Shown piece after piece: positions 2,791 to 26,575 of a DNA stretch of 36,767 nt. The stretch comes from an uncultured Alistipes sp. Its GTDB lineage: Bacteria; Bacteroidota; Bacteroidia; Bacteroidales; Rikenellaceae. The notes under the pieces are model-generated. The model ran no database searches. It was not told where the DNA came from and saw nothing but the letters and a program-made list of their open reading frames with translations. How positions within the stretch are numbered: position 1 is the stretch's first letter; each line of letters begins with the position of its first letter. The translations under genes were made by a program, and so were the position numbers. The stretch covers positions 1 to 36,767 of the forward strand of contig CALUJN010000054.1 of NCBI GenBank assembly GCA_944320985.1. The letters are read 5' to 3'.

Positions 2791-5700
2791 TCACTCCCAT
2801 ACGCGGCAATCCATTCCCGCATACTTTGCGTGTTGCTCCGGGGTTGGACGGAAAAGGTACCAGCGGGCATCGGCAAAGGCCTCGGGAGCGAGGGCCGATT
2901 CGGAGGCAAGGTGCAGATTCTCCGGTTGAGCCGCCACCTGACGGGAGAGGGCCAGCAGATCCGCATCCCCCTCGAAGGCGTAGACCTCCGTAGCCGGATG
3001 GACCAAGGCAAAGAGCAGTCCGAGTTCGCCCTGTCCGTTATTGACGACCACGATCCGGGGCGGAAGTGGGTCGGTATCGATCCAACGGCTGAAGGCATCG
3101 GTTTCACGCAGCAGGCGCCGGCAGCGTGACTCGACCTGCGGCCCCTTGTAGAGGTAGCGGGCCAGGATTTGCGGACGGAAACAGGCTGTGTCGGAACCGT
3201 CGCGCCGCAACTTCTCCTCCAGTGCATCGACCCGTCGTGCGGCATCGCAGGCGTGCATGCGGACCGGAATACCGAAGTCGACCGTCAGCATTCCGGCGGC
3301 CGGAAGCAGGCCGCCATCGGGCAGCAGTTCCCGGCTTCCGTGGATCCCGACGGGGAGAATCATCGTATCGAAATCGAGCGGTTCGTCGACGAAAAAGGCG
3401 ATCCGTGCCCCCTGTTCCCAGGCTGCGCGGGCCTGGCTGCACGGGATCAGCGTATGCGTTGTCCGCAGCAGGGCCGACAACAGACGCGGCAGACGGCGAT
3501 CCGTCGCAAGAAGCGTTCCGGCAAAACATCCCGTCACCACGAACGGATCCAGCGCCGTATGGTAGCGCACGGCCAGAAGGCGTTCCGGGGTTGCGGCCGG
3601 CGTATTGCGGAGATGGAGGTCCGGCAGGTGTCGCAGGTTCCAGACTGCGGTCCGGTGCATGAAACGTTGCAGCAACCGGCGGTTATTGCCCGCAGCGAGG
3701 GCAAGCACCCGTGCCACGAGCAGTTCCACGACGACCGATCCCCACAGAACGGCGGCTGCGAAGATCCGGCGGAATGTCACCGGAACCGACCGCGGAGCCC
3801 CTTGTGCATCGCGGACCAGCCAGCGGTAGATGAACGGCGGAAGGAGATAGGCCATCAGTACCACGGCAAACATCCCGACGATGGTCACTTCGGCCAGCGA
3901 ACGGAGGGCCGGATGGCGGGAAAGGATAAGCGTGCCGATGCCGATGAGCATGATCAGCGCCGAGATTACGATACTCTTCTTATAGGAGCCGAGAAGTTTG
4001 CGGCCGTAGGCGTGTTCGTAGATCAGCCCCTCGGTGATGAAGATCGTATAGTCGTCGCCCTGTCCGAAGATGAAGGTGGCAAGGATGATGTTCACCAGAT
4101 TGAAGCGGATGTCGGCCAGTTCCATGATGCCCAGGATCCAGAGCCAGCTGACGGTCATCGGAAGGAAGGCCAGCAGGCTCAGTTCGAGGCGTCCGAACGA
4201 GAACCACAGGAAGAGAAAGACGATGATCCCGCACGACCAGCAGATATAGTTGAAGTCGCCGGTCAGGGCGTTCGAAATGGCGCTGTTCACACCCCGGACA
4301 TCGAAACTGTAGGAGTCGGGAACTCGCTCCCGCAGCGCCTCCTTGACCGTCTCGACGGCGGTCGGCGGAACCTCGATCCGGTCAACCACCGTGCAACGCC
4401 CCTCCTGGCTGTCCAATGCACCGCTGAACAGATTCTCCGTGAGCGGTGCGAACTCCGACCAGGAGATCGGAACAAAGTGTCGTGCGAGCAGCTCGTCGAA
4501 CGGCGCGAAGGCATCCGCCCGGAAGCCGTTCGCACGGAGCGCCGCCTCCATCCGCGTGCGGATCATCGCACCGTGCCGCTCCAGAAAATCCTCCCAAAGG
4601 GCCAGACGCCGCTGTTGTTCGGCCTGCGAGGGCAGGTAGGGCGTGGCGCTTGTCAACCGGGCGCCGGGGCACTCCGCAACGGTCCGTTCCACCGCTGGCC
4701 GGGCCTGTTCGCTGCGTCGCAGGGCCTCGTCCCAGTTCGTGCCTTCGGAGGCCACGTAGATCGTCGTCAGCCCCTCGTTGCCGAGCATCTCCCGGAACGT
4801 TGACAGATCGGCTCGCTGTTCGGAGGTCATGTAGTTGATGTGCTGCAGATCGGTGTCGAAGGCCGTATGGCGGCTCAGGAACCCGAAGACAACGGTCAGC
4901 AGGCAGATCGTCACAAAGAGCCGCGGGCGCTTCTCGAACGAAATGCGGGTGAAGGGGCCAAGCAGCGCATCGCTACGCTCCGGAGCCGGCCTCCGACGTC
5001 CGGCCAGATGAGGCAGGAACACCAGCACGAAAAGGATCGTACCCACCAGCATGAAGGCCGCAAAGAGTCCCAGATCCCGCAGCGCAGGAGCCGTCATCGG
5101 GACCAGGCACAGGAAGGCTCCGACGGTCGTGAGGTTGCCGATCACCAGCGGGGAGACGATCTCGCGCAGCGCCGAGCGCATGTCGGGTTCATGGTGCAGG
5201 TGCGAGAGCAGGTGCAGGGGGTAGTTGACGGCGATGCCGATGATGATCGACCCGATTCCCAGGATGATCATCGAAACCTCGCTGCGGAAGAGCGACAGGC
5301 AGCCCATGGCGAAGAGCCACCCGAAGAGAATCGTAAGTCCGATGAGCAGCAGCGAACGCAGCGACCGCAACGTATAGAGGAGCAGCGAGAGGATCAATAC
5401 CGCGGCAATGGCGATCGCCAGCAGACTGTCGCTCTTGATCTGTCGGGCATTCGTCACGGCGATGACCGGGGCGCCCGAAAGGTGGACCTCCACCTCGGGA
5501 ACGGCCTTCTGGGCCGCCGCGGCGGCCTCGGAGAGCAGTGACACCAGGCGGGCATTGTTGCTCGTCTCGTTCGATCCGTAGGGTGTACGCATCGTCACGA
5601 TTGCGCAGCGGCCATCCGGAGTCAGGATATAGCCGTCGTAGAGTTCGTATTTCAGATCGTTGCGGAAGCGTTGCAGGCGCGATACGGTCGGCGAGAAGAG

Positions 5701-6240
5701 ATTCAGCGGATCCTGTCGCACGAATTGCGAGAGAAGACCTCCCGTCGGGAACATCAGCTGCATCCGATCGCGGGCGATCTGTGCGTCGATGTACTCCGGC
5801 GTCAGCAGCGAGTCGATCCGCGCGTAGTCTCGCTCGTCGAGGAAATAGGGGATATGGCTGTAGAGGAACTCGGGCACGGCGGAGAAACGTTCGTAGTCGA
5901 TGCGCGTCGTGAAGTCCCGAAGCGCATGGAGCGTATCCCGCAGCACCACCTCGTCGGCAAAGCGGTCGACGGCAGCGGTCAGGCGGTCGGGAGAGACCGC
6001 CGCGGTTGTGTCATGCGGTACGACGAGGGCGACGATCCGGTCGGCCGCCGAGAGGTTCTGGTAGAGGTTCAGCGCCTTGCGGTGGGTGTTGTCGACGGGC
6101 AGGAAGTCCAGGATGTTCTCGTTGTGCCGAAGCGACAGCATCCCGGCTGACAGGGCCAGGCAAAGCCCCGCCAGCAGGGCAAAAAGCCAGCTCCGATGCC
6201 GGCTGAACCAGTCGTACACGCGAAGAAAAAACGTCACCAT
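2791..6240 (-). CDS. MMPL/RND-type exporter fused to a degenerate acyltransferase-Rossmann module
   Basis: A large inner-membrane protein of 1149 residues. Seen: TM1 at about 18-36; a periplasmic domain to about 268; a five-to-six helix bundle at about 271-412; another helix near 440-456; a second periplasmic domain to about 660; and a second bundle at about 664-808 containing FGQGDDYTIF (725-734). This is the two-fold RND/MMPL architecture, and such exporters accompany aryl polyene and xanthomonadin clusters, where they are thought to move the lipid product. Unusually, residues about 820-1149 add another membrane segment, a PlsC-like region with decayed motifs (HTALD 894-898, no FPEGT) and a Rossmann-like stretch IVVVNNGQGELG (1063-1074). 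This tail matches the interrupted gene at 11754-12944. It is the last gene of the cluster, after a 65-bp spacer with a hairpin. Confidence 0.88.
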   Translation of the reverse strand: MVTFFLRVYDWFSRHRSWLFALLAGLCLALSAGMLSLRHNENILDFLPVDNTHRKALNLYQNLSAADRIVALVVPHDTTAAVSPDRLTAAVDRFADEVVLRDTLHALRDFTTRIDYERFSAVPEFLYSHIPYFLDERDYARIDSLLTPEYIDAQIARDRMQLMFPTGGLLSQFVRQDPLNLFSPTVSRLQRFRNDLKYELYDGYILTPDGRCAIVTMRTPYGSNETSNNARLVSLLSEAAAAAQKAVPEVEVHLSGAPVIAVTNARQIKSDSLLAIAIAAVLILSLLLYTLRSLRSLLLIGLTILFGWLFAMGCLSLFRSEVSMIILGIGSIIIGIAVNYPLHLLSHLHHEPDMRSALREIVSPLVIGNLTTVGAFLCLVPMTAPALRDLGLFAAFMLVGTILFVLVFLPHLAGRRRPAPERSDALLGPFTRISFEKRPRLFVTICLLTVVFGFLSRHTAFDTDLQHINYMTSEQRADLSTFREMLGNEGLTTIYVASEGTNWDEALRRSEQARPAVERTVAECPGARLTSATPYLPSQAEQQRRLALWEDFLERHGAMIRTRMEAALRANGFRADAFAPFDELLARHFVPISWSEFAPLTENLFSGALDSQEGRCTVVDRIEVPPTAVETVKEALRERVPDSYSFDVRGVNSAISNALTGDFNYICWSCGIIVFLFLWFSFGRLELSLLAFLPMTVSWLWILGIMELADIRFNLVNIILATFIFGQGDDYTIFITEGLIYEHAYGRKLLGSYKKSIVISALIMLIGIGTLILSRHPALRSLAEVTIVGMFAVVLMAYLLPPFIYRWLVRDAQGAPRSVPVTFRRIFAAAVLWGSVVVELLVARVLALAAGNNRRLLQRFMHRTAVWNLRHLPDLHLRNTPAATPERLLAVRYHTALDPFVVTGCFAGTLLATDRRLPRLLSALLRTTHTLIPCSQARAAWEQGARIAFFVDEPLDFDTMILPVGIHGSRELLPDGGLLPAAGMLTVDFGIPVRMHACDAARRVDALEEKLRRDGSDTACFRPQILARYLYKGPQVESRCRRLLRETDAFSRWIDTDPLPPRIVVVNNGQGELGLLFALVHPATEVYAFEGDADLLALSRQVAAQPENLHLASESALAPEAFADARWYLFRPTPEQHAKYAGMDCRVWE

Positions 6241-6272
6241 ATCATCTTGTCATTCATCCCGTTCATTGTACT

Positions 6273-6300
6273 TGCCGGGTGAAGCTGCCGCTCCCGGCAG
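6273..6300 (-). other. Two mutually exclusive hairpins before the exporter start
   Basis: Plus-strand CTGCCG (6285-6290) and CGGCAG (6295-6300) form a 6-bp stem with a 4-nt loop. Alternatively TGCCGGG (6273-6279) pairs with CCCGGCA (6293-6299) to give a 7-bp stem. Both use the same arm, so only one can form. They lie in the 65-bp spacer between the acyltransferase stop (6306) and the exporter ATG (6240). No U run follows. They could tune translation or mRNA stability of the exporter, but this is inference. Confidence 0.35.
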
Positions 6301-6305
6301 GTCCC

Positions 6306-7442
6306 TCAATCGTTTGTGTCGTTGTCGTAGTCGACCGGCGAGGCGTAGATCCCCAGGAAGAGGTCGCGCAGCAGGTCGCCGTCCGCCACGTCGAATCTCG
6401 ACAACTCGCCCAGCCGGTCGAGGAACGCCTCCTTCTGCGCCGGAGTGTAACGGTCGGCATGGCGGCGTTGCCCGTAGAGCAGATCGTGGGCGATGTAGTT
6501 GTTCGGCGTGCGGCGGTAGCGACTCCGGATCGCCCGGTCGAGCAGCCGCGTCACCTGCCGGTGGTATTCGTTGTGGGTGCAGCCGTCGTAACGCCGCAGC
6601 TGCTCCTCGTCCAGACACGGCCCGAAGGCCATATGAACGGCCCCCTTGGGCTGCATGATGCCCGTGAGGATGCTGTTCAGATCCTCGCCCGGCTTCTTCG
6701 TGTAGCGCGTGAAGCGCGATTCGTAGAGCTCCAGCGCCTTGAGAATGTCGCACGGCTCCCATTCGTAGGAGATCGTCAGCGGCACGATGTGAAGCTCGGC
6801 AAGAGCCTCGATCTTGTCGAATGGCTTGCTCATGCAGAACATCTTCACGATGCCCTGATCCGTAAGGTCGTTGCCGTCCTTCGTGCGGCCGTTGCGCTGC
6901 GCGATCCATACCGACTGCCGCTTCTCGGTGATCGTGTGACGGATGTACTCCGAACAGTGCAGCGAACTGCGGTAGAAATCCTTCATGTTCCCGCCCCGCT
7001 CGATGCGGAACATCTTGTTCGACTTGCCGATGTCGATGACCAGCGGCGAAGACATCAGATTCGCCCCGAAGGTGATCTCCGAGGTCTCGTGTCCGTTCAC
7101 GAAGAGCAGGTACTGAAGCAGCGAGGCATCAAGCATGATGTCGCGGTGGTTCGAGACGAAAAGATAGCGTTGGTTTGGATCGAGACGCTCCAGCCCCTCG
7201 TGGGTGAACGACGTGATGCTCCGCGCGATGACCTGTTCGTTCACGGGCTTCATCACCTCGCCCTGGAACTCCCGGATCGTCGTGATCCCGGAGACCCGCC
7301 TCCGTACCGATTCGAGCTCCTCGCCCGGAAAAACATAGGTCGCCAGCAACGGGAAAAACTCACTCGCGGCGATACGTCGCATCGCCGCCGGGATCTCCTC
7401 GTCATAGTAGGGACGGATATCGTCAAAGCGGGTGTCTCTCAT
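6306..7442 (-). CDS. PlsC/GPAT-like acyltransferase
   Basis: A 378-residue protein of the glycerolipid acyltransferase superfamily, predicted to move an acyl chain from ACP or CoA to a hydroxyl acceptor at the membrane. Seen: SNHRDIMLDASLL with His99 and Asp105 as the likely catalytic pair; a following basic segment FRIERGGNMKDFYRS; WIAQRNGRTKDGNDLT, which takes the place of the glutamate-glycine motif III; and LHIVPLTISYEW as motif IV. There is no obvious membrane anchor, and the protein is longer than simple PlsC. The open frame extends far upstream, but ATG 7442 is chosen because it gives a 4-bp ATGA overlap with the ligase gene and everything before it reads as a shadow of that gene. Its role is probably esterification of the aryl polyene acid to a lipid or glycerol acceptor. 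Confidence 0.85.
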   Translation of the reverse strand: MRDTRFDDIRPYYDEEIPAAMRRIAASEFFPLLATYVFPGEELESVRRRVSGITTIREFQGEVMKPVNEQVIARSITSFTHEGLERLDPNQRYLFVSNHRDIMLDASLLQYLLFVNGHETSEITFGANLMSSPLVIDIGKSNKMFRIERGGNMKDFYRSSLHCSEYIRHTITEKRQSVWIAQRNGRTKDGNDLTDQGIVKMFCMSKPFDKIEALAELHIVPLTISYEWEPCDILKALELYESRFTRYTKKPGEDLNSILTGIMQPKGAVHMAFGPCLDEEQLRRYDGCTHNEYHRQVTRLLDRAIRSRYRRTPNNYIAHDLLYGQRRHADRYTPAQKEAFLDRLGELSRFDVADGDLLRDLFLGIYASPVDYDNDTND

Positions 7443-8758
7443 ACTTGTTTGCGTTTGTCGATGAATTTGACCGGTTTGCGGCTCTTGGCCGGAAAGTTGA
7501 TGCGCTGGATCTCCTCCACGGGAAGAATCTCGATCTCCGGAGCCACGCGGATCCGCGAACGGAAACGGTCCTTGAGATCCTTCACCGCGTCGAATCCGGG
7601 AGCCTGCTTCAGCCCGATGCGGACGATGACCCGATCGGTCCCGGCATCGCTCTCCTCGACCTCGACAACGTAGTTCTCCACGTAGTCCGTATTGTCCAGT
7701 ACGTCGTTCAGGGCCGGCGGATAGAGCGTCGTGCCCTTGAGCTTGATCATGTTGTGCTTGCGCCCGACGAGCGGCGTGAGGCGGTAGGACCACCGGCCGC
7801 AACGGCACTGCTCGGTCCGTTTGGCGGCGATGTCCCCCGTGCGGAAGCGCAGCAGCGGCATGCCCTCGACCCCGAGCGTCGTGACGACGATCTCGCCGTA
7901 CTCCCCGTCCGGAACCGGAAGGTTGTCCTCGCCGATGATCTCCACGATGATCAGCTCCGGATGGATGTGGCCGCCGCAGCCGTACTCGCACTCCGAGAAG
8001 GTCGCACCCATCTCCGTCGAGGAGTAGGTGGCAAAGAGCGCCACGTCCCACTTCTCGCGGATGCGCTGTCCGAGCAGATTGAGCGAAAAGTCCTGTTCGC
8101 GCAGCCCCTCGCCGATGCCGATGATGCGGCGGATGCTGCTGTGGCGGTAGTCGATGCCGTGCTCCTCGGCGTACTGGATCAGCCGCAGGATGAACGACGG
8201 CACGCACATGATCGTATCGGGCTGCAGCCGCCGGATCGTGTCCCACTGCAGTTCGGGAATGCCGTTTCCGACGCGGATGACGCTGGCACCCAGTTCACGG
8301 ATCCCCAGGAAGTAGGCCAAACCGGCCATGAAGCGCTTGTCGAGCGTGGTCATCAGCTGCACGATGTTACCCGGTCGGAGCCCCGCACAGGCGAAGGACT
8401 TCTTTTCGTTGTAGGCCAGGCGCTGCAGGTCGCGTTCCGTACATCCGAATGTCACCGGATCGCCCAGCGTCCCCGAGGTGGTCACATAGTCGACGATCCG
8501 CTCCCGCGGGCAGCAGAGAAACTCCTCGTTGAAGAGCTGCAGGTCCTTCTTCTCCGTGAAGGGGATCTTCACCAGATCCTCGAGGTGGCGGATCCGATCG
8601 AGGCGGATCCCATAGCGCTCGAACATGCGGCGGTAGTAGGCCGAATGTTCCGACAGATAGTGCAATGCCTCCTGCAGCAGCCCCTCCTGGAAGCGTTTGA
8701 TCTCCTCCGGCGTGCGGTATTCGATGTCGTTCTCAATAGGTGAAAGAATCGGTTCCAT
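7439..8758 (-). CDS. PaaK-like AMP-dependent ligase
   Basis: A 439-residue adenylate-forming enzyme of the phenylacetate-CoA ligase (PaaK) branch. It activates a carboxylic acid with ATP and passes it to CoA or a carrier protein. Seen: the P-loop TSGTLGDPV (94-102), the adenine/substrate motif YSSTEMG, the hinge-region motif FRTGD followed by a CRCG pair, GRKHNMIKLKG, and a small C-terminal PaaK-type domain. CEYGCGG and CRCG may form a structural metal site. In this cluster the natural substrate would be 4-hydroxycinnamate from the ammonia-lyase, loaded on CoA or an ACP as starter; this is inference. A fatty acid is the alternative, since LuxE-type acyl-protein synthetases are distant relatives. 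ATG 8758 is chosen over 8788 to shorten the overlap with the upstream oxidoreductase to 26 bp. Confidence 0.86.
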   Translation of the reverse strand: MEPILSPIENDIEYRTPEEIKRFQEGLLQEALHYLSEHSAYYRRMFERYGIRLDRIRHLEDLVKIPFTEKKDLQLFNEEFLCCPRERIVDYVTTSGTLGDPVTFGCTERDLQRLAYNEKKSFACAGLRPGNIVQLMTTLDKRFMAGLAYFLGIRELGASVIRVGNGIPELQWDTIRRLQPDTIMCVPSFILRLIQYAEEHGIDYRHSSIRRIIGIGEGLREQDFSLNLLGQRIREKWDVALFATYSSTEMGATFSECEYGCGGHIHPELIIVEIIGEDNLPVPDGEYGEIVVTTLGVEGMPLLRFRTGDIAAKRTEQCRCGRWSYRLTPLVGRKHNMIKLKGTTLYPPALNDVLDNTDYVENYVVEVEESDAGTDRVIVRIGLKQAPGFDAVKDLKDRFRSRIRVAPEIEILPVEEIQRINFPAKSRKPVKFIDKRKQV

Positions 8759-10265
8759 GGTCGGTTTCGTATTTCGTGTTGATAGCATGGATCAGTCGGT
8801 TGGTGCCCAGCAGCGCCTCGGCCGTGTTGATGGCCGTGAGCGGTACGCCGCAGATGCCGTGCAGGTTGATGTTCTGACCCGTAAGGAGCAGGTTGCGGAT
8901 CTTCGTGAAGATCGGAACCTGCGACAGCGCGATCTGCTGCGCATCCTTGCAAAAGCCGTACATCGAACCCTCCTTCACGCCGTAGTAATCGCGGATGGTC
9001 AGCGGACTCGACGTATGGAGCGTCTCGATCTTCGTGCGGAATCCCGGATGGAGCTGCTCCATGAGGTCGAGAATCCGGGCGGCCTGCGCCGCCTTCCAGC
9101 GTTCGTACTCCGCACCGCGGCGTCCGGTCGTCGTCGACTCCCAGCGGCGCACCGCCTCGAAGCTCATCGGGGTGGTGATGATCATCTTCCGGCTGAAGGG
9201 CCCCTGGTCGCTTACCGGCGGTGTCATGTACATCACGCCCCGCGGCCAAAGATCGTCGTATGCGCCGAAGCGCCACGCCTCGCCGTGCGAGATCTGGCAG
9301 TAGCACGTGTGGTTGATGTAGGGGAACGCGTCGGGCCGCAGCGTCAGGTAGAGCGTGAAGGCCGAATAGCTGTTCGGAATCGAATCCAGCCGCTGGCGGT
9401 AGGCCCGGGGCAGAGACCCCTCGGGCAGCAGGCGCAGCAGCGTACAGGGATGGATGGCCGAGATGTAGCGGTCGGCCGTGAAGCGGCGCCCGTCGGCGGT
9501 CTCCACGCTGTGGATCGTCCGCTCCTCGCAGTGTATGGTGCGGACCTCGGCGCGGGTTTCGACGGTTCCGCCTCCTGCACGGATAACGTCGGAGAGCGCC
9601 TCGGCCAGTTGCGAACTGCCGTCCACGAAGCGGTCTTCACCGTTGATGTAGAGTACGTTGACCAGCGCATGGATATAGGCCGGCGTATGGTGCGCAACGC
9701 CTCCGTACATGGGATTCATGTAGGCCAGCACGTCGCGCAGCCGGGGATCCGAGACGTAGCGGGCGATCAGTTCGTCGGCCGGGCAGAGGAACTCCTCCGA
9801 ATGGGAGAAGATCGACACGGAATCCTCGCGCAGATAGAACATCCCGACCTCTTCGGAGAGGCGGTAGAGCGCCTCGACGTAGCGTCGCACACCCTCCGCC
9901 TCGAGGGGAAACCGTTCGGCGAAGTAGGCCGTAAAGCGTTCCCGCCCCCCGGGGATGGCATAGCGCTCGCCCTCCGCAAGGTAATGCAGCGAGTCCATGC
10001 AGTCGGGATCCGTCGGGCGGATCCGCAGCCGGTCGAGGATCCCCAGGTAGTGGCAGATCCGCGCGAGCGACCCGCCCCGGCGGAAGCCTCCCAGCATGTG
10101 CATACCCGTCTCGAAGCGTTCGCCGCTCCGCACAAAGGTCTGAAGACCGCCGCCGGGCGTGGCGTTCTTCTCCAGCACCGTAACCCGGTATCCGTTCCGT
10201 GCCAGCAGCGCCCCCGTGAAGAGGCCTCCCAGCCCTCCGCCGATGATCAGTACCCGCTCATTCAT
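8733..10265 (-). CDS. CrtI/phytoene desaturase-like FAD oxidoreductase, copy 1
   Basis: A 510-residue flavoprotein of the CrtI/amine oxidase-like superfamily. Seen: the N-terminal dinucleotide-binding motif LIIGGGLGGLFTGALLARNG followed by the ribose-binding Glu in VLEKN, then the CrtI-type GGGLQTF and FETGMHMLGG segments. A C-terminal flavin-binding block reads NLLLTGQNINLHGICG. Start ATG 10265 places the Rossmann motif at the N-terminus; the frame is open upstream but reads as a shadow. It overlaps copy 2 by 8 bp. No phytoene synthase is present, so carotenoid synthesis is unlikely. Possible roles are dehydrogenation, isomerisation or saturation of the polyene or its head group. It has the same layout as the next gene but is clearly diverged from it. 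Confidence 0.88.
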   Translation of the reverse strand: MNERVLIIGGGLGGLFTGALLARNGYRVTVLEKNATPGGGLQTFVRSGERFETGMHMLGGFRRGGSLARICHYLGILDRLRIRPTDPDCMDSLHYLAEGERYAIPGGRERFTAYFAERFPLEAEGVRRYVEALYRLSEEVGMFYLREDSVSIFSHSEEFLCPADELIARYVSDPRLRDVLAYMNPMYGGVAHHTPAYIHALVNVLYINGEDRFVDGSSQLAEALSDVIRAGGGTVETRAEVRTIHCEERTIHSVETADGRRFTADRYISAIHPCTLLRLLPEGSLPRAYRQRLDSIPNSYSAFTLYLTLRPDAFPYINHTCYCQISHGEAWRFGAYDDLWPRGVMYMTPPVSDQGPFSRKMIITTPMSFEAVRRWESTTTGRRGAEYERWKAAQAARILDLMEQLHPGFRTKIETLHTSSPLTIRDYYGVKEGSMYGFCKDAQQIALSQVPIFTKIRNLLLTGQNINLHGICGVPLTAINTAEALLGTNRLIHAINTKYETDHGTDSFTY

Positions 10266-18716: not shown

Positions 18717-19888
18717 ATCTCTCCTCCCCGTTTGAACAGCAGCGCGGCATTGCATCCGCCGAAACCCGAAAGCATCTTGACAAAGGCGCGGCGCGTCGTC
18801 GGCACGTGTCGGGAGGTGAGGCTCTGCGGATGCGAAACGCCGCATTCCGCATATCCGCGCGTCCCGAGTACAAGCCCCTCGTCGAGAGCATGCATCGTCA
18901 AGACCGACTCCAGCACCCCGGCCGCACCCATCGTATGGCCGAAATAGCCCTTCAAGGCGTTGACGGGGACTCCCGTCAGTCCGGCCCGGTCGAGGGCGAT
19001 GGACTCCATCTCGTCGTTGTAGAGCGTCGCCGTGCCGTGGACGTTAACAACGGCCAACTCTCCGGGGTCAACACCCTGCAGAACGGCCTGCAAGGCCCGG
19101 TAGCACCCTTCGCCCGTCCGCGAAGGTCCCGAGATATGGTTGGCATCGTTGCGGATCGCACCCCGGCAGGCAATCCACATCTGCGGCGTGACCTCCTCGC
19201 GGCGGCGGCGTGCATAGATGACCGTCGCGGCGGCCTCGCCCAGGTTCAGTCCCGTACGGTTGCGGTCGAAGGGGCGGCACGCCTCCGGGGAGAGCGCCTT
19301 GAAGCTCTGGAAACCCGAAACGATGAAGCGCGACTGTCGGTCGGCGCCGATCACCACGGCACGGTCGCAACGTCCGCTCCACAGCGCCCGCATGGCGGCA
19401 ATCTGTGCGCAGAGGCCCGACGTGCAGGCATTCGATACGACGACCGCCGGATTCGGATTGCGGAAAAATGAGGCAATCCGACGCGCCGACCAATCGGGAA
19501 GCACCTCCTCCCGATAGCGGTTGTCGGTCTCCAGCAGCGCCACGTTGCCCTTCGTCGTCGAGAGGAAGAAGAGCACACGCTCCGACGACGGGTCGATGCC
19601 CGCCTCGTCCAGCGCACACGCAGCCGAAAGGATCGACAGCCGCTCGAATTCGCTGTAGCCCGCCAGTCGTTCCGCTCCATAACGCGCAGACAGCGCCCGG
19701 TCGATCGCCCCGAAATCCAGCAACGACGCAACGAACGGTTCCGGGAGGTCCCAGAGCCCCTCGTAGCGGCGCAAGGCAGACTCCCCGGCCACGACAGCGC
19801 GAAGCGTCGCGGCCGTATCCAGTCCCAGCGGCGAGACGATATTGTCCCCCTCGCGGACGATCAGTTCATGTTCCAACGCGCTTTCCAT
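18710..19888 (-). CDS. Beta-ketoacyl-ACP synthase, FabB/FabF-like (second KS)
   Basis: A 392-residue condensing enzyme. Seen: Cys155 in SNACTSGLCAQ, His284 in VNVHGTATLYND, Lys313 and His318 in ALKGYFGHTMGAAG, and the C-terminal MLSGFGGCNAALLF. All catalytic residues are present. The N-terminus is shorter than FabF and lacks the usual VVVTGxG strand, beginning ELIVREGDNIVSPLG instead. ATG 19888 gives a 28-bp overlap with the thioesterase. In aryl polyene systems one ketosynthase often starts the chain and another elongates it; which role this one has cannot be told. It sits directly upstream of the truncated ketosynthase-like gene. Confidence 0.88.
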   Translation of the reverse strand: MESALEHELIVREGDNIVSPLGLDTAATLRAVVAGESALRRYEGLWDLPEPFVASLLDFGAIDRALSARYGAERLAGYSEFERLSILSAACALDEAGIDPSSERVLFFLSTTKGNVALLETDNRYREEVLPDWSARRIASFFRNPNPAVVVSNACTSGLCAQIAAMRALWSGRCDRAVVIGADRQSRFIVSGFQSFKALSPEACRPFDRNRTGLNLGEAAATVIYARRRREEVTPQMWIACRGAIRNDANHISGPSRTGEGCYRALQAVLQGVDPGELAVVNVHGTATLYNDEMESIALDRAGLTGVPVNALKGYFGHTMGAAGVLESVLTMHALDEGLVLGTRGYAECGVSHPQSLTSRHVPTTRRAFVKMLSGFGGCNAALLFKRGGEIC

Positions 19889-20301
19889 TGGGCGTAAAAT
19901 TCCGGTGTCAGCCACACCAGGCGGTACTCCTTGTCCATGAAGACCTGCACGCTGTGGCCCGTGGCCAGCAGTTCGTCGGTCTCGGCATGGCGGATCTCGT
20001 AGTCGAAGACGATCTTCGCGGCCTCCGTCGGCCGATAGTGGATGTCGATCCGGCACGGCATGCCATAGACGATCGGCGACTTGTACTTGAATGACAACTC
20101 GACCAGCGGCGCGTAGTATCCCTGGCCGAAAATGTCCATGTAGCCCAGCCCGTATTTGGCTCCGAAGGCCTCCCGGGCATCCTCGAAATAGAGCGGGTAG
20201 GAGCCGTGCCAGACGATGTTCATCGAGTCAACCTCGCTGAAGCGCACCTCGAAACGTTTCGAGGCGACCAGCTCTTTCGTGATCTTTTTATCGCTTTTCA
20301 T
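19861..20301 (-). CDS. Hot-dog acyl thioesterase (4HBT family)
   Basis: A 146-residue thioesterase of the 4-hydroxybenzoyl-CoA thioesterase/YbgC family, which hydrolyses acyl-CoA or acyl-ACP thioesters. Seen: the family signature VRFSEVDSMNIVWHGSYPLYFEDARE with Asp25 and His32, then YAPLVELSFKYKSPI. The length is typical. In aryl polyene clusters such enzymes are candidates for releasing the finished chain or editing stalled ACPs. It is flanked by ketosynthase and dehydratase genes (28-bp overlap, then a 6-bp gap), which supports action on ACP-bound intermediates. Confidence 0.88.
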   Translation of the reverse strand: MKSDKKITKELVASKRFEVRFSEVDSMNIVWHGSYPLYFEDAREAFGAKYGLGYMDIFGQGYYAPLVELSFKYKSPIVYGMPCRIDIHYRPTEAAKIVFDYEIRHAETDELLATGHSVQVFMDKEYRLVWLTPEFYAQWKARWNMN

Positions 20302-20307
20302 CGTCGG

Positions 20308-20742
20308 TTATGGTTGTGCGTCGGTTTCACTCAGGGCTATCTTCATCCGTGCCGTGGCCAGAAGCTCTCCCTCCGTGCGGACCTCGGCTTCGACGAGCAG
20401 CATGCGGAAAATCTCCTCACGGGTCACGATCGTCGTCTCAAGCGTCTCTCCGCAGCGTGGCAGGCGCCGGATCTCCAGATCGCGGATCGCACCGATGAAG
20501 CCCAGTTTTACCCGCTCGGCGTGCAGCAGGTTGATATATCCCATTCGGGCGGCACAGGTCTGGGCGATATTTTCGATCACTCCCGCCGCCTGCAACTCGC
20601 CCTCCTCGCAGAAGAGGTGTTCCGCGCGCACCGTAAAGCGCGTCACCGTGCGCTGTTCGTCGAAATCGACCAGGCGGTCGATCAGGATGAACGGCTCTCG
20701 CTGCGGAAGCAGCTCATGAATGTCGATCGCTTCGAATGACAT
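20308..20742 (-). CDS. Hot-dog dehydratase of the ApeP type
   Basis: A 144-residue hot-dog protein related to the ApeP/FabZ-like 3-hydroxyacyl-ACP dehydratases. Seen: IHELLPQREPFILIDRLVDF at the N-terminus, the typical opening of these proteins, and GVIENIAQTCAARMGYI with Glu57 and Gln61 at the positions of the FabZ EAxAQ motif. His42 in AEHLFCEEGEL may serve as the catalytic His, though spacing differs by about one residue from FabZ. It probably works with the dehydratase at 13674-14069, which has the His but lacks the Glu. ATG 20742 comes 2 bp after the TAG stop of the upstream acyltransferase; a TTG at 20754 is less likely. Confidence 0.82.
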   Translation of the reverse strand: MSFEAIDIHELLPQREPFILIDRLVDFDEQRTVTRFTVRAEHLFCEEGELQAAGVIENIAQTCAARMGYINLLHAERVKLGFIGAIRDLEIRRLPRCGETLETTIVTREEIFRMLLVEAEVRTEGELLATARMKIALSETDAQP

Positions 20743-20744: not shown

Positions 20745-21668
20745 CTATTCCCAAAAATCGTAGTAGTTAAACCATTGCGTCGGGTAACGGCGTACAATCG
20801 CCTCCAGCTGAGCGGAAAACATACGGGCGGCATGCTCCATGCGCTGTCGTTTCGGAAGGCTTGCGTCGCCCGTGTCGATCCGTTCGACGAAGATCCGGTA
20901 GCGTTTCGCGGACTCCTTCATCACGAAGATCGAAAGCATCGCAACATCCCGTTGTACGGCCAGTGCGAACGGACCCAGCGGAAATTGCGCCGAAGCGCCC
21001 AGAAAATCACAGCGGACGCTCTTCTGCGAACCGAACAGCCGGTCGCCCGGCATCCCGACGATGTTTCCCTCCATCAGCGCCCGGTTGGCCGTGAACAGGT
21101 GCGACATGTCGCCCAGCACCGGAACCATCTCGATATTGTTCCCCGCAAAGCACTTCGCACGGTTCTGCATCACGGTCTCCTTCTCTCCGGCATAGACCAG
21201 CGCATAGAAGCGTTTCTCCTCGGGGTGGAGCGAATAGCCCGCCAGTTCGTAGTTGCCCACGTGCGAACTGACCATAAGGAAACCTTCGGGGCGGGAGACC
21301 CGTTCGCGATAGTATTCGTTATGCTCGATCTCGATGTGGAACTGTTGCCCGGCATAGATGGCAAAGCGGTCCAGAATGATCTGTCCGAAGCGGTAGTGAC
21401 TCGCGTAGACCGACCGCAAGGTTCTCCAGCGTCCGTATCCCAAGCGCCGGCGGAAAAAATCCCGATTGGCCCGGTAGCCCCGGCGGTTGAAGAGCATGTA
21501 GAAGACGACAACCACCGCCATGACGCCATACAGGATGCGGATGTCCGTCCAGCGGAACAGGGCGATCAACGATCGCAACATCCACGGACGGCCATCGGTG
21601 CGGCCCTGCCACGCCTCGTGTGCCGAAACTTCGGCTCCCCCTGCGGTCGATGTCGTTTCCGCTCCCAT
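20745..21668 (-). CDS. LpxL/HtrB-like lipid acyltransferase
   Basis: A 307-residue inner-membrane acyltransferase of the lipid A late acyltransferase family. Seen: an N-terminal membrane segment at about 44-60 (ILYGVMAVVVVFYMLF), the catalytic HX4E motif as HVGNYE (His136, Glu141), then the GMPGDRLFG and FPLGPFALA blocks typical of the family. It would transfer an acyl chain from ACP to a membrane-bound acceptor. Because it sits between an ACP and a dehydratase inside the polyene operon, the donor is more likely the aryl polyenoyl-ACP than a housekeeping fatty acid; this is inference. The first 29 residues are low-complexity, so the ATG at residue 30 (WMLRSLIALF) is a possible alternative start. 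It ends in TAG. Confidence 0.88.
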   Translation of the reverse strand: MGAETTSTAGGAEVSAHEAWQGRTDGRPWMLRSLIALFRWTDIRILYGVMAVVVVFYMLFNRRGYRANRDFFRRRLGYGRWRTLRSVYASHYRFGQIILDRFAIYAGQQFHIEIEHNEYYRERVSRPEGFLMVSSHVGNYELAGYSLHPEEKRFYALVYAGEKETVMQNRAKCFAGNNIEMVPVLGDMSHLFTANRALMEGNIVGMPGDRLFGSQKSVRCDFLGASAQFPLGPFALAVQRDVAMLSIFVMKESAKRYRIFVERIDTGDASLPKRQRMEHAARMFSAQLEAIVRRYPTQWFNYYDFWE

Positions 21669-21675: not shown

Positions 21676-21924
21676 CTATTTGTCGCCGACCTTGCTCTGG
21701 ATGTAGTCGCAGAAGTCCTGCAGCGTCTTTACGCCGCCCATCTCCTCGGGCTTGATCTTGAAGCCGAACGTCCGCTCGACAATCACCACGATATCCACGA
21801 AATCCAGGCTGTCGATGCCGATGTCCTCCTTCAAAAGGGCCTCCGGGAAGATCTTCTCCTCATCCACCTCCAGTTCGTCGATCAGAAACGCCTTGACTTT
21901 TTCTTCGATCTCTTTTCTTTCCAT
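21676..21924 (-). CDS. Acyl carrier protein (first ACP of the cluster)
   Basis: An 82-residue ACP with the phosphopantetheine motif GIDSLDFVDI at Ser39. Helix I (KEIEEKVKAFLIDELEV) is strongly acidic and the C-terminal helix ends LQDFCDYIQSKVGDK. It is the more FabF/FAS-like of the two carriers. It lies 7 bp upstream of the LpxL-like acyltransferase and 23 bp downstream of the methyltransferase, so it may present the chain to the acyltransferase. Confidence 0.93.
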   Translation of the reverse strand: MERKEIEEKVKAFLIDELEVDEEKIFPEALLKEDIGIDSLDFVDIVVIVERTFGFKIKPEEMGGVKTLQDFCDYIQSKVGDK

Positions 21925-21947
21925 AAAAAATATGCTTGTTGTTTGTT

Positions 21948-23048
21948 CTATTGTTTTTTCCGGCAGACCATGATGCTGTGACCCCAGCCCAGCGAGTCGT
22001 GGAGCGTCTCCACCTCCAGACCGGCCGATTCAACCAGGCGCTGCATGGCTTCCGAATGGTACATCTTGCTGTTGCCGTTGGCGATGGCCGTGAAGTAGAG
22101 GCTTGTCAGCGTCAGGCACAGCGTCGCCGTTTCGTACTTCTGGCGGTCCCAGAAGGTCTCCATGATATAGAGACGCGTCGTCTCCGTCATGATCCGGGCC
22201 GCACGCTCCAGGATCGAGCGGATCTCCTCCTCGCCGAAGCAGTCGAGGAACTGGCTCATCCAGATTGCATCGTACGTGCCGTCGGTCGGGAAGGGCGTCG
22301 CAGCATCCAGCAGGTTGCAGCCGTAACCGTGGATCCGATCCGAACCCGGCTTAGCTGCCGTCTGGCGGCGCATCATCTCGAGTTGCTGCGGGAGGTCCGC
22401 AATCGTCACCTCGACCTGCGGATCGTAAGCCACACAGCGAAGGGCCCAGCGGCCCGTATTTCCGCCGACGTCGAGCAGGCGATGGGTCGGACGCGAGAAG
22501 ATCACCCGCAGCGCCTCGTCGAACGAATGGTCCGAGTAGAAGTGGTCGAACCCGAACCAACTCCGCTGCACCTCCTCCGGAAGCTGCGAAAGACCCTCGT
22601 AGACCGTCTTCCACGGCCCGAAATGCTCCAGACCGGCCGGACGTCCCTCCCGGAGCGACTCCTCGAGGCGGAACATGCCTTCGTAGTTGACGTCGTGGTT
22701 GAAATCCAGGTTCACGCGCGTCGAGGCGTCGGTCAGCAGGAACCATCCCGTCTTCGAGAGCGTGAAACGCTCGCTCGACGGATCGACCAGCACCGTGCCG
22801 ATCGACAGCGACGCCTCCAGCAGAACCCGGACCGCATACTCCGAAAGGCCGGTCTCTCGGGCGAGCTCCTCAAGGGTCATCCCGGCGTCGCGGTCGCGCA
22901 ACAGATCCAGGATCCCGAACTTCACCATCAGGCGCGACACCTCGAAGACGATCGGTCCGAAGGCGATGAACTGAGCCTGTCGCTGAGCCTCACGCGCCGT
23001 CAGCGGCTCGCGCGTGTAGCGTTTTTCCAATGCGGGGAAGAGTTTCAT
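21948..23048 (-). CDS. SAM-dependent O-methyltransferase-like protein
   Basis: A 366-residue class I methyltransferase of the hydroxyindole/caffeate O-methyltransferase type. Seen: an N-terminal winged-helix dimerisation domain (FGILDLL, MTLEELARETGLSEYAVRVLLEASLSIG), then motif I LLDVGGNTGRW (191-201), VTIADLPQQ (motif II) and DAIWMSQFLDCFGEEE (motif III). Enzymes with this layout usually methylate a phenolic or carboxyl oxygen. The phenol of a 4-hydroxycinnamoyl starter, or a ring position, is the natural candidate here; methoxy or methyl head groups occur in related pigments. The expected His base is not obvious, so C-methylation cannot be excluded. It is 9 bp downstream of the first ketosynthase. 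Confidence 0.85.
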   Translation of the reverse strand: MKLFPALEKRYTREPLTAREAQRQAQFIAFGPIVFEVSRLMVKFGILDLLRDRDAGMTLEELARETGLSEYAVRVLLEASLSIGTVLVDPSSERFTLSKTGWFLLTDASTRVNLDFNHDVNYEGMFRLEESLREGRPAGLEHFGPWKTVYEGLSQLPEEVQRSWFGFDHFYSDHSFDEALRVIFSRPTHRLLDVGGNTGRWALRCVAYDPQVEVTIADLPQQLEMMRRQTAAKPGSDRIHGYGCNLLDAATPFPTDGTYDAIWMSQFLDCFGEEEIRSILERAARIMTETTRLYIMETFWDRQKYETATLCLTLTSLYFTAIANGNSKMYHSEAMQRLVESAGLEVETLHDSLGWGHSIMVCRKKQ

Positions 23049-23057
23049 GGCATTCGC

Positions 23058-24281
23058 TTACTTGACTTTGCGCAGCACAAGGGCGCTGTTCGTACCGCCG
23101 AACCCGAACGAGTTCGAAAGCACCGTGTCAACAGGCGTATCCACCGTGACGGCGGTGAGATTCAATTTGGCGGCGTATTCGTCGGGGTGTTCCAGGTTGA
23201 TGTTCGGTGCCACGAAATCGTGCTGCATCATCAGCGTCGAGTAGACGATCTCGCTCGCGCCGCCCATCCAGCACTCGTGGCCCGTCATCGATTTCGTCGA
23301 ACTGATCAGTGCATGCGTATCGTGGAAAACCCGGTCCAGGGCGATTGCCTCGTACATGTCGCCCTGCGGCGTCGACGTTGCATGGGCATTTACGTAGTCG
23401 ATCTCGTCGGGCTGCATCCCCGCGGCCTCCAGCGCCCGAAGGATCGCCGTAACCGATCCGTCGTCGCTCGGCTGCGAGATGCCCCCGCCGTTCGACGAGA
23501 AGCCGTAGCCGCAGACCTCGGCAAGGATCGGGGCTCCGCGACGGACGGCATGTTCGTACTCCTCGAGCACCAGAGCCGCGGCTCCGCCGCTGGGGATCAG
23601 TCCGTCGCGGTCACGGTCGAAGGGCCGCGAAGCCTTCGTCGGTTCGTCCATCCGGACCGAAAAGGCGCTCAGGGCGTCGAACGTCGCCATCGAGTAGTAG
23701 TTGACCTCCTGCGCGCCGCCGCACAGCACGGCATCCTGAAGCCCCTGGCGGATGAGCAGGTATCCCAGACCGATCGAGTGCGAGCCGCTGGCGCAGGCCG
23801 CACTCACGGTGAAGTTGATGCCCCGCAGGTGGAAGATCGTGCTCAGATTCATCGTCACCGTGGAGTTCATCGACTGGAAGATCAGACCCGACCCCAGCAA
23901 TGCCGAGTCGTGTTTCTCATCCATGATGCGGGCAGCCTCGATGACCGGTTTGGCCGAGGAGTCGTTGCCGAAAAGGATCCCCACCTCGTTCTCCCGAAGG
24001 TAGGATTCGTCCATCGCCGCCTGTTCGAAGGCCTGCCGCGAGGCCATGTAGGCATATTCGGCCTCCTCCGAAAGGCCCACCCGCAGGCGGCGGTCCAGGA
24101 TCCCCTTGAGCTGCGGCCGCGGGACGATGCCCGTCAGTCCCGAGCGATAGCCGTATTCAAGCCGTTCCCGCTCCAGGCCAATGCCCGAACGCCCGGCATG
24201 AAGCGACTCCTTCACCTCCTTGAGATTTTGTCCCAGGCACGACCAGATGCCCATGCCCGTAATAACGACGCGTCGTTCCAT
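23058..24281 (-). CDS. fabF: Beta-ketoacyl-ACP synthase, FabF-like (first KS)
   Basis: A 407-residue FabF-type condensing enzyme with all catalytic residues: Cys163 in SAACASGSHSIG, His300 in VNAHATSTPQGD, Lys330 and His335 in SSTKSMTGHE, and the C-terminal SNSFGFGGTNSALVL. The N-terminus RRVVITGMGIWSCLG is canonical. It is the second or third enzyme made from the operon, directly after the ketoreductase (20-bp gap), so it may carry out the first condensations on the aryl starter. It is closer to housekeeping FabF than the two downstream ketosynthases, but its location shows it belongs to the cluster. Confidence 0.92.
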   Translation of the reverse strand: MERRVVITGMGIWSCLGQNLKEVKESLHAGRSGIGLERERLEYGYRSGLTGIVPRPQLKGILDRRLRVGLSEEAEYAYMASRQAFEQAAMDESYLRENEVGILFGNDSSAKPVIEAARIMDEKHDSALLGSGLIFQSMNSTVTMNLSTIFHLRGINFTVSAACASGSHSIGLGYLLIRQGLQDAVLCGGAQEVNYYSMATFDALSAFSVRMDEPTKASRPFDRDRDGLIPSGGAAALVLEEYEHAVRRGAPILAEVCGYGFSSNGGGISQPSDDGSVTAILRALEAAGMQPDEIDYVNAHATSTPQGDMYEAIALDRVFHDTHALISSTKSMTGHECWMGGASEIVYSTLMMQHDFVAPNINLEHPDEYAAKLNLTAVTVDTPVDTVLSNSFGFGGTNSALVLRKVK

Positions 24282-24301
24282 ATAGCTGTTCTTATCTTTT
24301 T

Positions 24302-25030
24302 TCAGGTGTACAATCCTCCGTTGATCGAAATGGTCTCGCCCGTGATGTAGGACGCATCCTCCGAGACCAGAAAGGCAACCAGTGCCGCAACCTCCTCGGG
24401 CCGTCCGAAACGCCCCGCAGGCACCAGCTTCTTCAACGACGACTGGTCGAGGTCCTTCGTCATGTCACTCTCGATGAACCCCGGAGCCACGGCGTTGACC
24501 GTCACCTTGCGCGGTGCAACCTCCTGTGCCAGAGCCTTCGTCGCGCCGAGCAGCGCAGCCTTCGCGGCCGAATAGTTCGTCTGCCCCGGAAGCCCCTTGA
24601 GCCCCGAAAGCGAGGCCATGTTCACGATCCGTCCCCAGCGATGGGTCAGCATCTCCTTCAGCAGACGGCGCGTGACGTAGAAAAAGCCGTTGAGCGTCGT
24701 GTCCAGGACCTTGTGCCACTCCTCGTTCTGCATGAAGACCAGCAGGTTGTCCCGACGGATCCCGGCGTTGTTCACCAGAACGGCGATATAATCGTCGGGG
24801 TGCGTCGCGCTCCATGTCTCGAGCGCCTTTTCGGTCTGTTCGGGATCCGAAACGTCGAACCGCAGCAGTTCGGCTTGTCCGCCCGCCTCGGTAATCGTGC
24901 GGAGCGTCTGCTCGGCGGCCTCCGTGTTCGACTGGTAGTTGATCAAAACCGGCCACCCCTGGGCTGCCAGCTTCTGACAAACGGCTCGCCCCAAACCCCG
25001 GGAGCCGCCCGTAACCAATGCGTATTTCAT
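24302..25030 (-). CDS. fabG: 3-oxoacyl-ACP reductase
   Basis: A 242-residue short-chain dehydrogenase of the FabG type, reducing 3-oxoacyl-ACP with NADPH during each extension cycle. Seen: the cofactor motif TGGSRGLG (7-14), NNAG (87-90), and the catalytic Ser140, Tyr153 and Lys157 (NMASLSG, NYSAAK). PGFIESDMT and the C-terminal ITGETISINGGLYT complete the family pattern. It lies 9 bp downstream of the ammonia-lyase gene. It is the only ketoreductase in the cluster, so it should serve all ketosynthases. Confidence 0.94.
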   Translation of the reverse strand: MKYALVTGGSRGLGRAVCQKLAAQGWPVLINYQSNTEAAEQTLRTITEAGGQAELLRFDVSDPEQTEKALETWSATHPDDYIAVLVNNAGIRRDNLLVFMQNEEWHKVLDTTLNGFFYVTRRLLKEMLTHRWGRIVNMASLSGLKGLPGQTNYSAAKAALLGATKALAQEVAPRKVTVNAVAPGFIESDMTKDLDQSSLKKLVPAGRFGRPEEVAALVAFLVSEDASYITGETISINGGLYT

Positions 25031-25039
25031 GATGTCGTT

Positions 25040-26575
25040 CTATTCCAAATTGAGCGGGTGATTCTTCAGATACGTTTCGACCTCGGCGATCTGTTTGTAG
25101 AAGGGCGCATCCTCGACAAAGCACGGAATGATAGCCCGAACCGCCTCGTAGATGCGGCGCGACGTCGGAGCCAGCGCGTCCCGGATCTTCAGGCAGTCGA
25201 CGGCCTGCGTCAGCGCAATGAAGTGAATCGACATCACCTGGTAGGCATTCTCGATCACCCGTTTGCAAAGAAGCGCCGAGTTGGTCCCCATGCTGACGAT
25301 ATCCTGGTTGTCGTTGTTGTTCGGTATGCTGTGCACGTAGTTCGGCATCGAGAGCGTCTGGCACTCCGCCGTGGTCGACGTTGCCGTGAACTGGCACGCC
25401 TGCATCCCGTAGTTCAGACCCAGCGTCCCGAGATTCAGGAACGGAGGAAGGATGTTGTTGATCCGGTCGTGGAACAGGTAGTTCAGTTGTCGCTCGGCCG
25501 TCATCGCAATGCGCGTCACGGCGATCTTCACCTTGTCCTCCTCGAGCGAAATGTAGTCCCCGTGGAAATTGCCGCCGTGGAAGACGTTCTGAAGGTCGGG
25601 ATCCACGATCGGATTGTCGCACGCCGAATTGAGCTCCTCCTCAAGAATACGGCGCGCGTTTTGCAGCGTCTCGTAGACCGGCCCCAGAATCTGCGGCGCA
25701 CAGCGCAGCGAATAGTAGGCCTGCACCTTGTGACGGCTGTCGAAGGTCTTGTCGTCTCCATGACCCCCGCTGTAGAGTTCGTGCTCCCGCTTGAGCATCC
25801 GCGTTCCGCCCTCGGAGAGCTCTCGCAGCCGCCGCGCGATGACCTGCTGTCCCTCGTGTCGCCGGCATGCGTTCAACCCCTCGGCCATGAAGTCATCGTA
25901 CGATGCCGCAATTTCGTTCATCATCACCGTGGCGAGCGTCGCCCAGTCCAGCAGCCGCTCGGCATAGAACTGGTTGACGATGCCGATGCCGGTCATCACG
26001 GAGGTCCCGTTGGTGATCGACAGCCCCTCGCGGATGTGGATACGCATGGGCTGCAGGCCGTTTTCACGCAGTACCTCTCCGGCCGGGCGCCATGCTCCCC
26101 GATAGTGGACTTCGCCCTCACCGATGAGCGTCAGGGCAATATGCGCCAACTGGACCAGGTCGCCGCTGGCGCCCACGCTGCCGTGTTCCGGGATGAAGGG
26201 GAAAATATCGCGGTTGATAAACTCGGTCAGCAGCTCCACAACCTCGGGATGGACGCCCGAACGGGCCTGAAGCAAGGTCCCCAGGCGGGCGATCATCGCC
26301 GCCTTGACATACAGGTCGGGAAGCGGGTCCCCGGATCCCGTCGAGTGGCTGCGGATGATGTTGTATTGAAGATCCGTGAGGTAACGGTCGTCGACGCGCC
26401 ATTGGGCCATCGGTCCGAAGCCCGTGTTGATGCCGTAGATCACCTTCTCGGAAGAGAAGCTGCGCAGGAATTCATAGCAGCGGGAAACCTCCTCGACAGG
26501 AAGCTCCGAACGCTCGATCCTGGCCCCCGAAAAAAGGAGATCTTCGACATAATTTAAACCAATCGCTCTGATCAT
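25040..26575 (-). CDS. Aromatic amino acid ammonia-lyase, tyrosine ammonia-lyase-like
   Basis: A 511-residue MIO-type lyase. Seen: the ASG triad (136-138, in GSVGASGDL) that forms the MIO electrophile; Tyr47 in YGINTGFG; SITNGTSVMTG; YYSLRCAPQILGP; and NNNDNQDIVSMG. The substrate-selectivity position reads RSH (75-77). Ser-His is typical of histidine ammonia-lyases, but from memory flavobacterial tyrosine ammonia-lyase also has LQYNLIRSH, matching LQYNIIRSH here, together with NTGFGPMAQ. No hutU, hutI or other histidine-degradation gene is nearby, whereas polyketide genes follow at once. I therefore infer that it deaminates tyrosine to 4-hydroxycinnamate as the pigment starter. ATG 26575 (MIRAIGLNY) is chosen; upstream codons are AT-rich leader. 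It is the first gene of the operon, 54-60 nt after a candidate promoter. Confidence 0.88.
   Translation of the reverse strand: MIRAIGLNYVEDLLFSGARIERSELPVEEVSRCYEFLRSFSSEKVIYGINTGFGPMAQWRVDDRYLTDLQYNIIRSHSTGSGDPLPDLYVKAAMIARLGTLLQARSGVHPEVVELLTEFINRDIFPFIPEHGSVGASGDLVQLAHIALTLIGEGEVHYRGAWRPAGEVLRENGLQPMRIHIREGLSITNGTSVMTGIGIVNQFYAERLLDWATLATVMMNEIAASYDDFMAEGLNACRRHEGQQVIARRLRELSEGGTRMLKREHELYSGGHGDDKTFDSRHKVQAYYSLRCAPQILGPVYETLQNARRILEEELNSACDNPIVDPDLQNVFHGGNFHGDYISLEEDKVKIAVTRIAMTAERQLNYLFHDRINNILPPFLNLGTLGLNYGMQACQFTATSTTAECQTLSMPNYVHSIPNNNDNQDIVSMGTNSALLCKRVIENAYQVMSIHFIALTQAVDCLKIRDALAPTSRRIYEAVRAIIPCFVEDAPFYKQIAEVETYLKNHPLNLE

Follow-up and report, generated by a model that had tools for sequence, protein, structure and literature searches.

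What does a flexirubin-type operon produce when the genes for the dialkylresorcinol (DAR) half of the pigment are not found? The question is raised by a locus in a metagenome-assembled genome (MAG) of an uncultured Alistipes sp. (family Rikenellaceae, order Bacteroidales; GenBank GCA_944320985.1; 2.66 Mb in 90 contigs, 87% complete, G+C 61%). The window analyzed here is the entire contig CALUJN010000054.1 (C54; 36,767 nucleotides), in which positions 2791 to 26575 of the minus strand hold 24 tightly packed genes, beginning with that of an ammonia-lyase (at 26575) and ending with that of an MMPL exporter (at 2791) (Table 1). Intergenic spacing does not exceed 94 bp, many genes overlap, and the sole long gap lies behind an interrupted acyltransferase gene, AT_S. 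The gene order mostly matches that of the flexirubin (flx) clusters from other families of Bacteroidota, and FlxA, FlxY, FlxJ, and LolA2 all pass the respective flexirubin cut-offs of NCBIfam. The probable product of this flx-type operon, which is complete or nearly so, is an aryl polyene acid built from tyrosine that goes to a polar lipid instead of being joined to a dialkylresorcinol. Since the resorcinol genes were not found and the operon includes a gene (AT_U) for a protein resembling glycerol-3-phosphate acyltransferase (GPAT), the pigment probably has another membrane lipid as its anchor.

The predicted starting point is tyrosine, as proposed in a preliminary description of this DNA: the lyase scores 835 bits with the FlxA model (cut-off 700) and 405 bits with the HutH model (cut-off 539). 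Among 395 Bacteroidota genomes, the FlxA cut-off is passed in 33, at 795 to 906 bits, with 394 bits for the best match below these; in a sample of the order Bacteroidales, the lowest FlxA score is 708. The lyase carries a stretch, IRSHS, resembling the SH stretch of histidine ammonia-lyases (HALs), and if it were such an enzyme, the operon would do something else. This is extremely improbable, given the model scores, the gap from 795 to 394 bits, and the presence in the same genome of a separate lyase gene (G000 C15:15897-17270, L001), flanked by HutU-like and HutI-like frames (recognized by eye), in what by its sequence is an ordinary histidine-use operon. The two lyases also differ in a motif compared by eye, which reads GQEDHVSMG in the C15 protein and NQDIVSMG, without the HAL-type Glu, in the window. 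The preliminary description had allowed for a lyase acting on histidine, and the sequences give no sign of it. The characterized FlxA of Chitinophaga pinensis is likewise HAL-like at motif 1; it prefers Tyr over Phe ∼1010-fold, and His gave no product (PMC3992019). The activities of both FlxA and FlxY have been demonstrated for the C. pinensis homologs only. The FlxA/FlxY pair is predicted to supply a 4-coumarate starter rather than the 4-hydroxybenzoate of the Escherichia coli type.

The type II aryl polyene set, consisting of ketosynthases (KSs) with a chain-length factor (CLF), two acyl carrier proteins (ACPs), both with the DS motif, a ketoreductase (KR), and dehydratases (DHs), is present, albeit with weak matches for the latter. 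Against PDB, the CLF gave, among FabF matches, weak matches to 7f28 (E 4e-4) and 6qsp_B (E 4e-3), which we take to be aryl polyene synthase partners. Family searches and a motif check recovered on the minus strand of this region every gene class listed in the preliminary description, and the gene content supports the aryl polyene assembly, probable methylation, and export suggested there. However, that list overlooked the two CrtI/CrtD-like flavin adenine dinucleotide (FAD) proteins, AT_U, the EamA-like protein, the conserved protein at 18105-18716, and the in-frame stop in AT_S.

The statement that flexirubin clusters normally also carry darA and darB was right in part: in C. pinensis, these two genes are found at a locus apart from flx (PMC3992019), so that the absence of DAR genes from a cluster alone proves little. 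In the window, this absence was confirmed by a tblastn search with DarA, made in the window only; for the other proteins it now extends to the whole assembly, which has no match to DarB or the C45 acyltransferase at E 1e-20 or to DarH at E 1e-10. Of the two further components that the preliminary description had proposed to look for elsewhere in the genome, DarB yielded nothing at this threshold and a phosphopantetheinyl transferase gene is present on contig C65. Outside Bacteroidales, 30 of the 31 FlxA-encoding genomes have DarB (29 of them above the cut-off and G017 with 519 bits; G118 is the one without it). FlxA is encoded in 86 of the 393 genomes of the Bacteroidales sample (G693 and G731, with partial lyases below the cut-off, were never among them), and 74 of these remain when the window's own genome, G238, and 10 genomes less than 90% complete are set aside. 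DarB was detected in 30 of the 74 (all scoring at least 527 bits and 24 of them above the cut-off; 31 of 75 when the DarB-positive G238 is added), leaving 44, of which 38 had no match and 6 had only 81- to 97-bit matches that were counted as absence. With genomes taken as independent, 30/31 versus 30/74 corresponds to a Fisher P value of 1.6e-8; Bacteroidales without DarB are common among FlxA-encoding genomes. In a set of 80 FlxA-encoding Bacteroidales (63 of the 74, the window's own genome, G238, and 15 of the 16 named relatives), DarB and DarH were both present in 26, DarB alone in 2, DarH alone in 8, and neither in 44, and 30 genomes, including the window's own, had none of DarB, DarH, and C45.

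An ordinary flexirubin, with its DAR genes located, as in C. pinensis, apart from flx in an unassembled part of the genome, would fit with the 87% completeness of the MAG, because of which a DAR locus could be missing, and with the two genomes of AT_U architecture, G405 and G410, that carry DarB on another contig. Nevertheless, such an arrangement appears quite improbable, as DarB, DarH, and C45 are all undetected in the window's assembly and DarB is absent from 14 of the 16 named Bacteroidales (it is found in 2; completeness of these genomes is not given), as well as from the 44 of 74 genomes that are at least 90% complete. The separate DAR locus of G405 (L182:3948-13172) comprises genes for MMPL, DarH, DarB, DarA, LolA-like, EamA-like, and dehydratase proteins; no further Dar gene was matched around DarB in G410. 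In G757 (L189:7289-14082), a radical SAM gene is found beside the DarA, DarB, and DarH genes and an ABC pair.

By their attachment modules, the clusters can be divided into three gene-order types. The DAR type (e.g., G025 and G755) includes DarA, DarB, DarH, a deacetylase, and C45; the C45 type (G238, G494, and nine genomes of the window's own family) has the deacetylase but no Dar gene in the cluster; and the AT_U type, represented in the window, combines the EamA-like protein, CrtA, CrtB, and AT_U and lacks C45, the deacetylase, and Dar proteins (CrtA and CrtB are labels coined in this analysis). The EamA-like gene lies between those for the CLF and LolA2 in all 13 AT_U-type clusters that show this interval and in no deacetylase cluster (0 of 15); AT_U adjoins FlxY in most AT_U-type clusters. 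Among the 80 genomes, in-cluster AT_U largely excludes C45, which is present in 3 and absent from 21 of the genomes with AT_U, as against 42 and 14, respectively, of those without it. Here, "in-cluster" means on the same contig within ∼31 kb of FlxA or in the flanks of FlxY, and such counts are lower bounds because of contig breaks. This swapped attachment module is the new element of the finding and was not noticed in the preliminary description; the accessible text of open-licence PMC papers held no account of such a split. The view of the cluster as an isolated oddity was not borne out, as there are 319 lyase-related stretches (the best 80 of which, those tabulated, are at least 72% identical) and aryl polyene clusters have been reported in rumen and gut genomes.

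In a fold search, AT_U displays the GPAT fold together with the HX4D motif; this search performed better than a sequence search against PDB, in which the only two matches had E values of 0.11 and 0.22. AT_U is the operon acyltransferase most likely to transfer the acyl chain, although the odds for this are somewhat below even. A sizable minority of our expectation goes to another scheme, in which the GT2 glycosyltransferase and the LpxL-like acyltransferase attach the polyene acid to a glycolipid or a lipid-A-like amino sugar and AT_U is a housekeeping GPAT that sits in the operon by chance. Indeed, clusters with and without AT_U alike contain GT2 and the LpxL-like acyltransferase, AT_U-like proteins also occur outside the clusters, and ApeD and ApeJ of E. 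coli have been proposed to anchor aryl polyenes, possibly to a glycolipid (PMC8253772). On the other hand, a housekeeping role fits poorly with the position of AT_U beside FlxY, its near exclusion of C45, and the genomes G404 and G400, which hold the cluster AT_U (63% and 66%, respectively) alongside a distant paralog (39%).

Several further observations weigh against attachment of the polyene to a polar lipid by a dedicated AT_U. The association of in-cluster AT_U with absence of DarB is not significant (DarB in 5 of 24 genomes with AT_U and lacking from 19, versus 23 of 56 without AT_U and lacking from 33; P = 0.12), so that a clean swap of AT_U for DarB was rejected, and all AT_U counts treat related genomes as independent. 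In 3 of the 16 named relatives (G397, G407, and G408), FlxY has no AT_U within 1.5 kb on either side, yet C45 is also absent. The fold of AT_U says nothing about its substrate, and many genomes encode AT_U-like proteins (∼33 to 50%) away from FlxA, whereas in the window's own genome and in G395, the cluster copy is the sole AT_U seen; for both reasons, AT_U might serve ordinary phospholipid synthesis. LolB2 and both DHs are only weak matches. Finally, because AT_S is interrupted, attachment may fail in this strain.

The interruption is an in-frame TAG at 12440-12438, after which the frame stays open for 227 codons, to 11754. Either the mutation is real or the assembly is wrong at this point; the relatives read through, and the aligned stretch is free of stops in 10 of 10 own-family clusters, in nine of which the counterpart is apparently fused to an exporter as its acyltransferase part, the tenth (G835) being probably the same genome as G395. 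A decaying operon that yields no finished pigment lipid in this strain would account for the stop but seems unlikely, as the other 23 frames are all open and a single-base MAG error can produce such a stop. A stop (TAA) suspected in the AT_U gene of G395 proved to be the gene's own end.

The two FAD proteins of the window, CrtA and CrtB, share 37% identity. In a tree, the CrtA proteins of AT_U-type clusters form their own clade; in G025 and G012, which have one such protein each, it lies on the side of CrtB. A carotenoid role for these CrtI-like proteins was dropped because a search of the assembly (87% complete) for phytoene synthase found none. In several AT_U-type clusters (G692, G680, G403, G405, and G406), genes for a B12-binding radical SAM protein, a 120-amino-acid protein, and a BD-FAE esterase lie between CrtA and FlxY (e.g., L163:7535-10115); in the window and G395, this interval is too short for them.

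The flx/dar clusters of C. pinensis and Flavobacterium johnsoniae resemble the window in the FlxA/FlxY start, the KS/KR/DH set, LolA, and the exporter (PMC3992019). The gene order of the window is largely that of the cluster in G025 (family f7, probably Flavobacteriaceae), which was aligned in place of the C. pinensis and F. johnsoniae clusters themselves; compared to it, the window lacks DarA, DarB, DarH, C45, the polysaccharide deacetylase, and the ABC pair and has CrtA, AT_U, and the EamA-like protein in addition. The ape cluster of E. coli CFT073 has a similar type II KS set, two ACPs, a methyltransferase, a thioesterase, acyltransferases including a predicted GPAT (ApeD), and an RND exporter with LolA/LolB-like proteins, and its gene table likewise contains no DAR genes (PMC8253772). 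The window differs from it in the predicted tyrosine starter (via FlxA/FlxY versus 4-hydroxybenzoate) and in the presence of CrtI-like FAD proteins. Among gut Bacteroidota, pBGC-12 of Bacteroides xylanisolvens, a flexirubin-like aryl polyene biosynthetic gene cluster reported to be similar to, and syntenic with, the flexirubin cluster of C. pinensis (PMC12940132), can be likened to the window by its description only. Rumen genomes have yielded 2,800 aryl polyene clusters (PMC8241843).

Closer to home, FlxA is encoded in 19 of 200 genomes of the window's family, including its own, and 10 of the other 18 were compared. One, G835, has the window's cluster type; G395/G835 and G409/G510 are each probably one genome, and further overlaps may remain. 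The other nine clusters have C45, the deacetylase, and one Crt-like gene, with no match to AT_U or a Dar gene in the stretch compared. Seven of them, from the window's own genus (G894, G915, G991, G937, G992, G817, and G938), share its backbone, with C45 and the deacetylase where the window has CrtA, AT_U, and the EamA-like protein, no match to DarA, DarB, or DarH in the stretch compared, and lyases 61 to 66% identical to that of the window. When 59 FlxA rows and HutH were placed in a tree (G277, with a stop in the aligned stretch, was omitted), the window grouped with G395 (L003, a MAG labelled Alistipes) within a clade of 21 rows with 100/99 support; 19 of the 21 are without DarB, and the named ones are, by title, mostly rumen and gut MAGs. 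Eight of the nine C45-type lyases form a separate clade (SH-aLRT 96), which includes six of the seven from the own genus, and G894, nearer to the window, branches next to the 21-row clade, a position of modest support (85). A topology that groups all nine with the window is rejected (approximately unbiased test, P = 3e-5; a quick tree, with G395 outside the constrained group). As nine other own-family clusters are of the C45 type and the joint lyase tree is rejected, horizontal exchange is the simplest reading that these sequences suggest; an old duplication with differential loss is the alternative.

To judge from the genes, the product is most likely an aryl polyene acid derived from tyrosine, probably methylated, on a polar lipid. 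FlxA would deaminate tyrosine to 4-coumarate, which FlxY would activate. Its extension to the polyene would fall to KS3 and the CLF, along with KS1, KS2, the ACPs, the KR, and the DHs, and FlxJ is expected to methylate the polyene. Isomerization or desaturation of the chain is the probable task of the CrtI-like FAD proteins. The acyltransferases of the operon, most likely AT_U, could then hand the finished acyl chain to a polar lipid, which GT2 and the LpxL-like and PlsC-like acyltransferases would complete. Flipping of the pigment lipid may fall to the EamA-like protein, and MMPL, LolA2, and the LolB-like protein would take it to the outer membrane. The anchoring model for E. coli is similar in that ApeD is predicted to be a GPAT and an intermediate may derive from a glycerophospholipid (PMC8253772). 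By analogy with aryl polyenes in the literature, the likely role is that of a membrane antioxidant pigment.

Table 1. Genes of the flx-type operon, in the order of transcription
Feature	Coordinates	Strand	Evidence
FlxA-type tyrosine ammonia-lyase	25040..26575	-	4-methylideneimidazole-5-one (MIO) motif ASGD; NCBIfam NF053541, 835 bits (cut-off 700)
KR, ketoreductase (SDR)	24302..25030	-	SDR glycine motif and YSAAK by motif check, no family-library run; positional homologs 54-80%
KS1, FabB/F-like ketosynthase	23058..24281	-	Cys-His-His motifs
FlxJ-family methyltransferase	21948..23048	-	NF053543, 598 bits (cut-off 560)
ACP1	21676..21924	-	PF00550; GIDSLD
LpxL/HtrB-like acyltransferase	20745..21581	-	PF03279
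DH2, FabZ-like dehydratase, weak	20308..20742	-	NF000582, 40 bits (cut-off 113); no Pfam match
4HBT thioesterase	19861..20301	-	PF13279
KS2	18710..19888	-	PF00109/PF02801; Cys-His-His motifs
Conserved flx protein ("KSN"), family without match	18105..18716	-	No Pfam/NCBIfam match; position conserved across clusters
ACP2	17825..18082	-	PF00550; GLDSID
KS3	16612..17814	-	PF00109/PF02801; Cys-His-His motifs
CLF	15578..16615	-	PF13723; no KS active-site motifs
EamA-like small membrane protein, possible flippase	15237..15590	-	PF00892, 33 bits (cut-off 28)
LolA2, flexirubin transport chaperone	14588..15232	-	NF053544, 180 bits (cut-off 125)
LolB2-like (LolB/DUF3261-like) protein	14080..14613	-	NF053540, 28 bits (under cut-off 60); same position in G395, G396, G400
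DH1, FabA/ApeI-like dehydratase, weak	13674..14069	-	PF07977, 25.3 bits (cut-off 23); PF22818 below cut-off
GT2 glycosyltransferase	12941..13693	-	PF00535
AT_S, PlsC-type acyltransferase, shortened by TAG	12438..12944	-	PF01553
CrtB, CrtI/CrtD-like FAD oxidoreductase	10258..11757	-	PF01593; TIGR02733 below cut-off; relatives in G025, G170, G012, G238
CrtA, second CrtI-like FAD oxidoreductase	8733..10265	-	PF01593; separate clade in AT_U-type clusters
FlxY, 4-coumarate ligase	7439..8758 (start possibly 8788)	-	NF053551, 693 bits (cut-off 520)
AT_U, GPAT1-fold acyltransferase	6306..7442	-	Motif NHRDIxLD
MMPL/RND lipid exporter	2791..6240	-	PF03176

The MMPL gene stands at the cluster end in the window and G395 and between those for GT2 and the FAD proteins in the other clusters compared. 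Adjoining it at 1571-2563 is a gene for a LuxC-like acyl-CoA reductase (PF05893), which was rejected as an operon member because the G395 region has no match to it. Upstream of the operon, at 27059-36756, a TlpA-like thioredoxin, two large proteins (one of them zinc-protease-like), and a SusD/SusC-like locus were recognized by eye.

Aryl polyenes are among the commonest predicted metabolites of the gut and rumen, and clusters of gut Bacteroidota have been described in the literature simply as flexirubin-like or aryl polyene. In many FlxA-encoding Bacteroidales (44 of 74), the gene responsible for the resorcinol half of flexirubin is lacking, and clusters can be divided by attachment module. 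Segatella buccae ATCC 33574, in which DarB was not found, is a named strain with an AT_U-type cluster in which the lipid can be tested. It is a rather doubtful proposal that, in a host-associated lineage of Bacteroidales, the flexirubin chromophore has become an acyl chain of a glycerophospholipid, set by AT_U as a dedicated GPAT to give a colored aryl polyene phospholipid, and that the operon as a whole passes from family to family and has replaced the C45-type version known from the window's own genus. A phospholipid-linked route has already been suggested for the aryl polyenes of E. coli (PMC8253772). If AT_U does attach the polyene, pigment synthesis in these bacteria would be tied to phospholipid synthesis.

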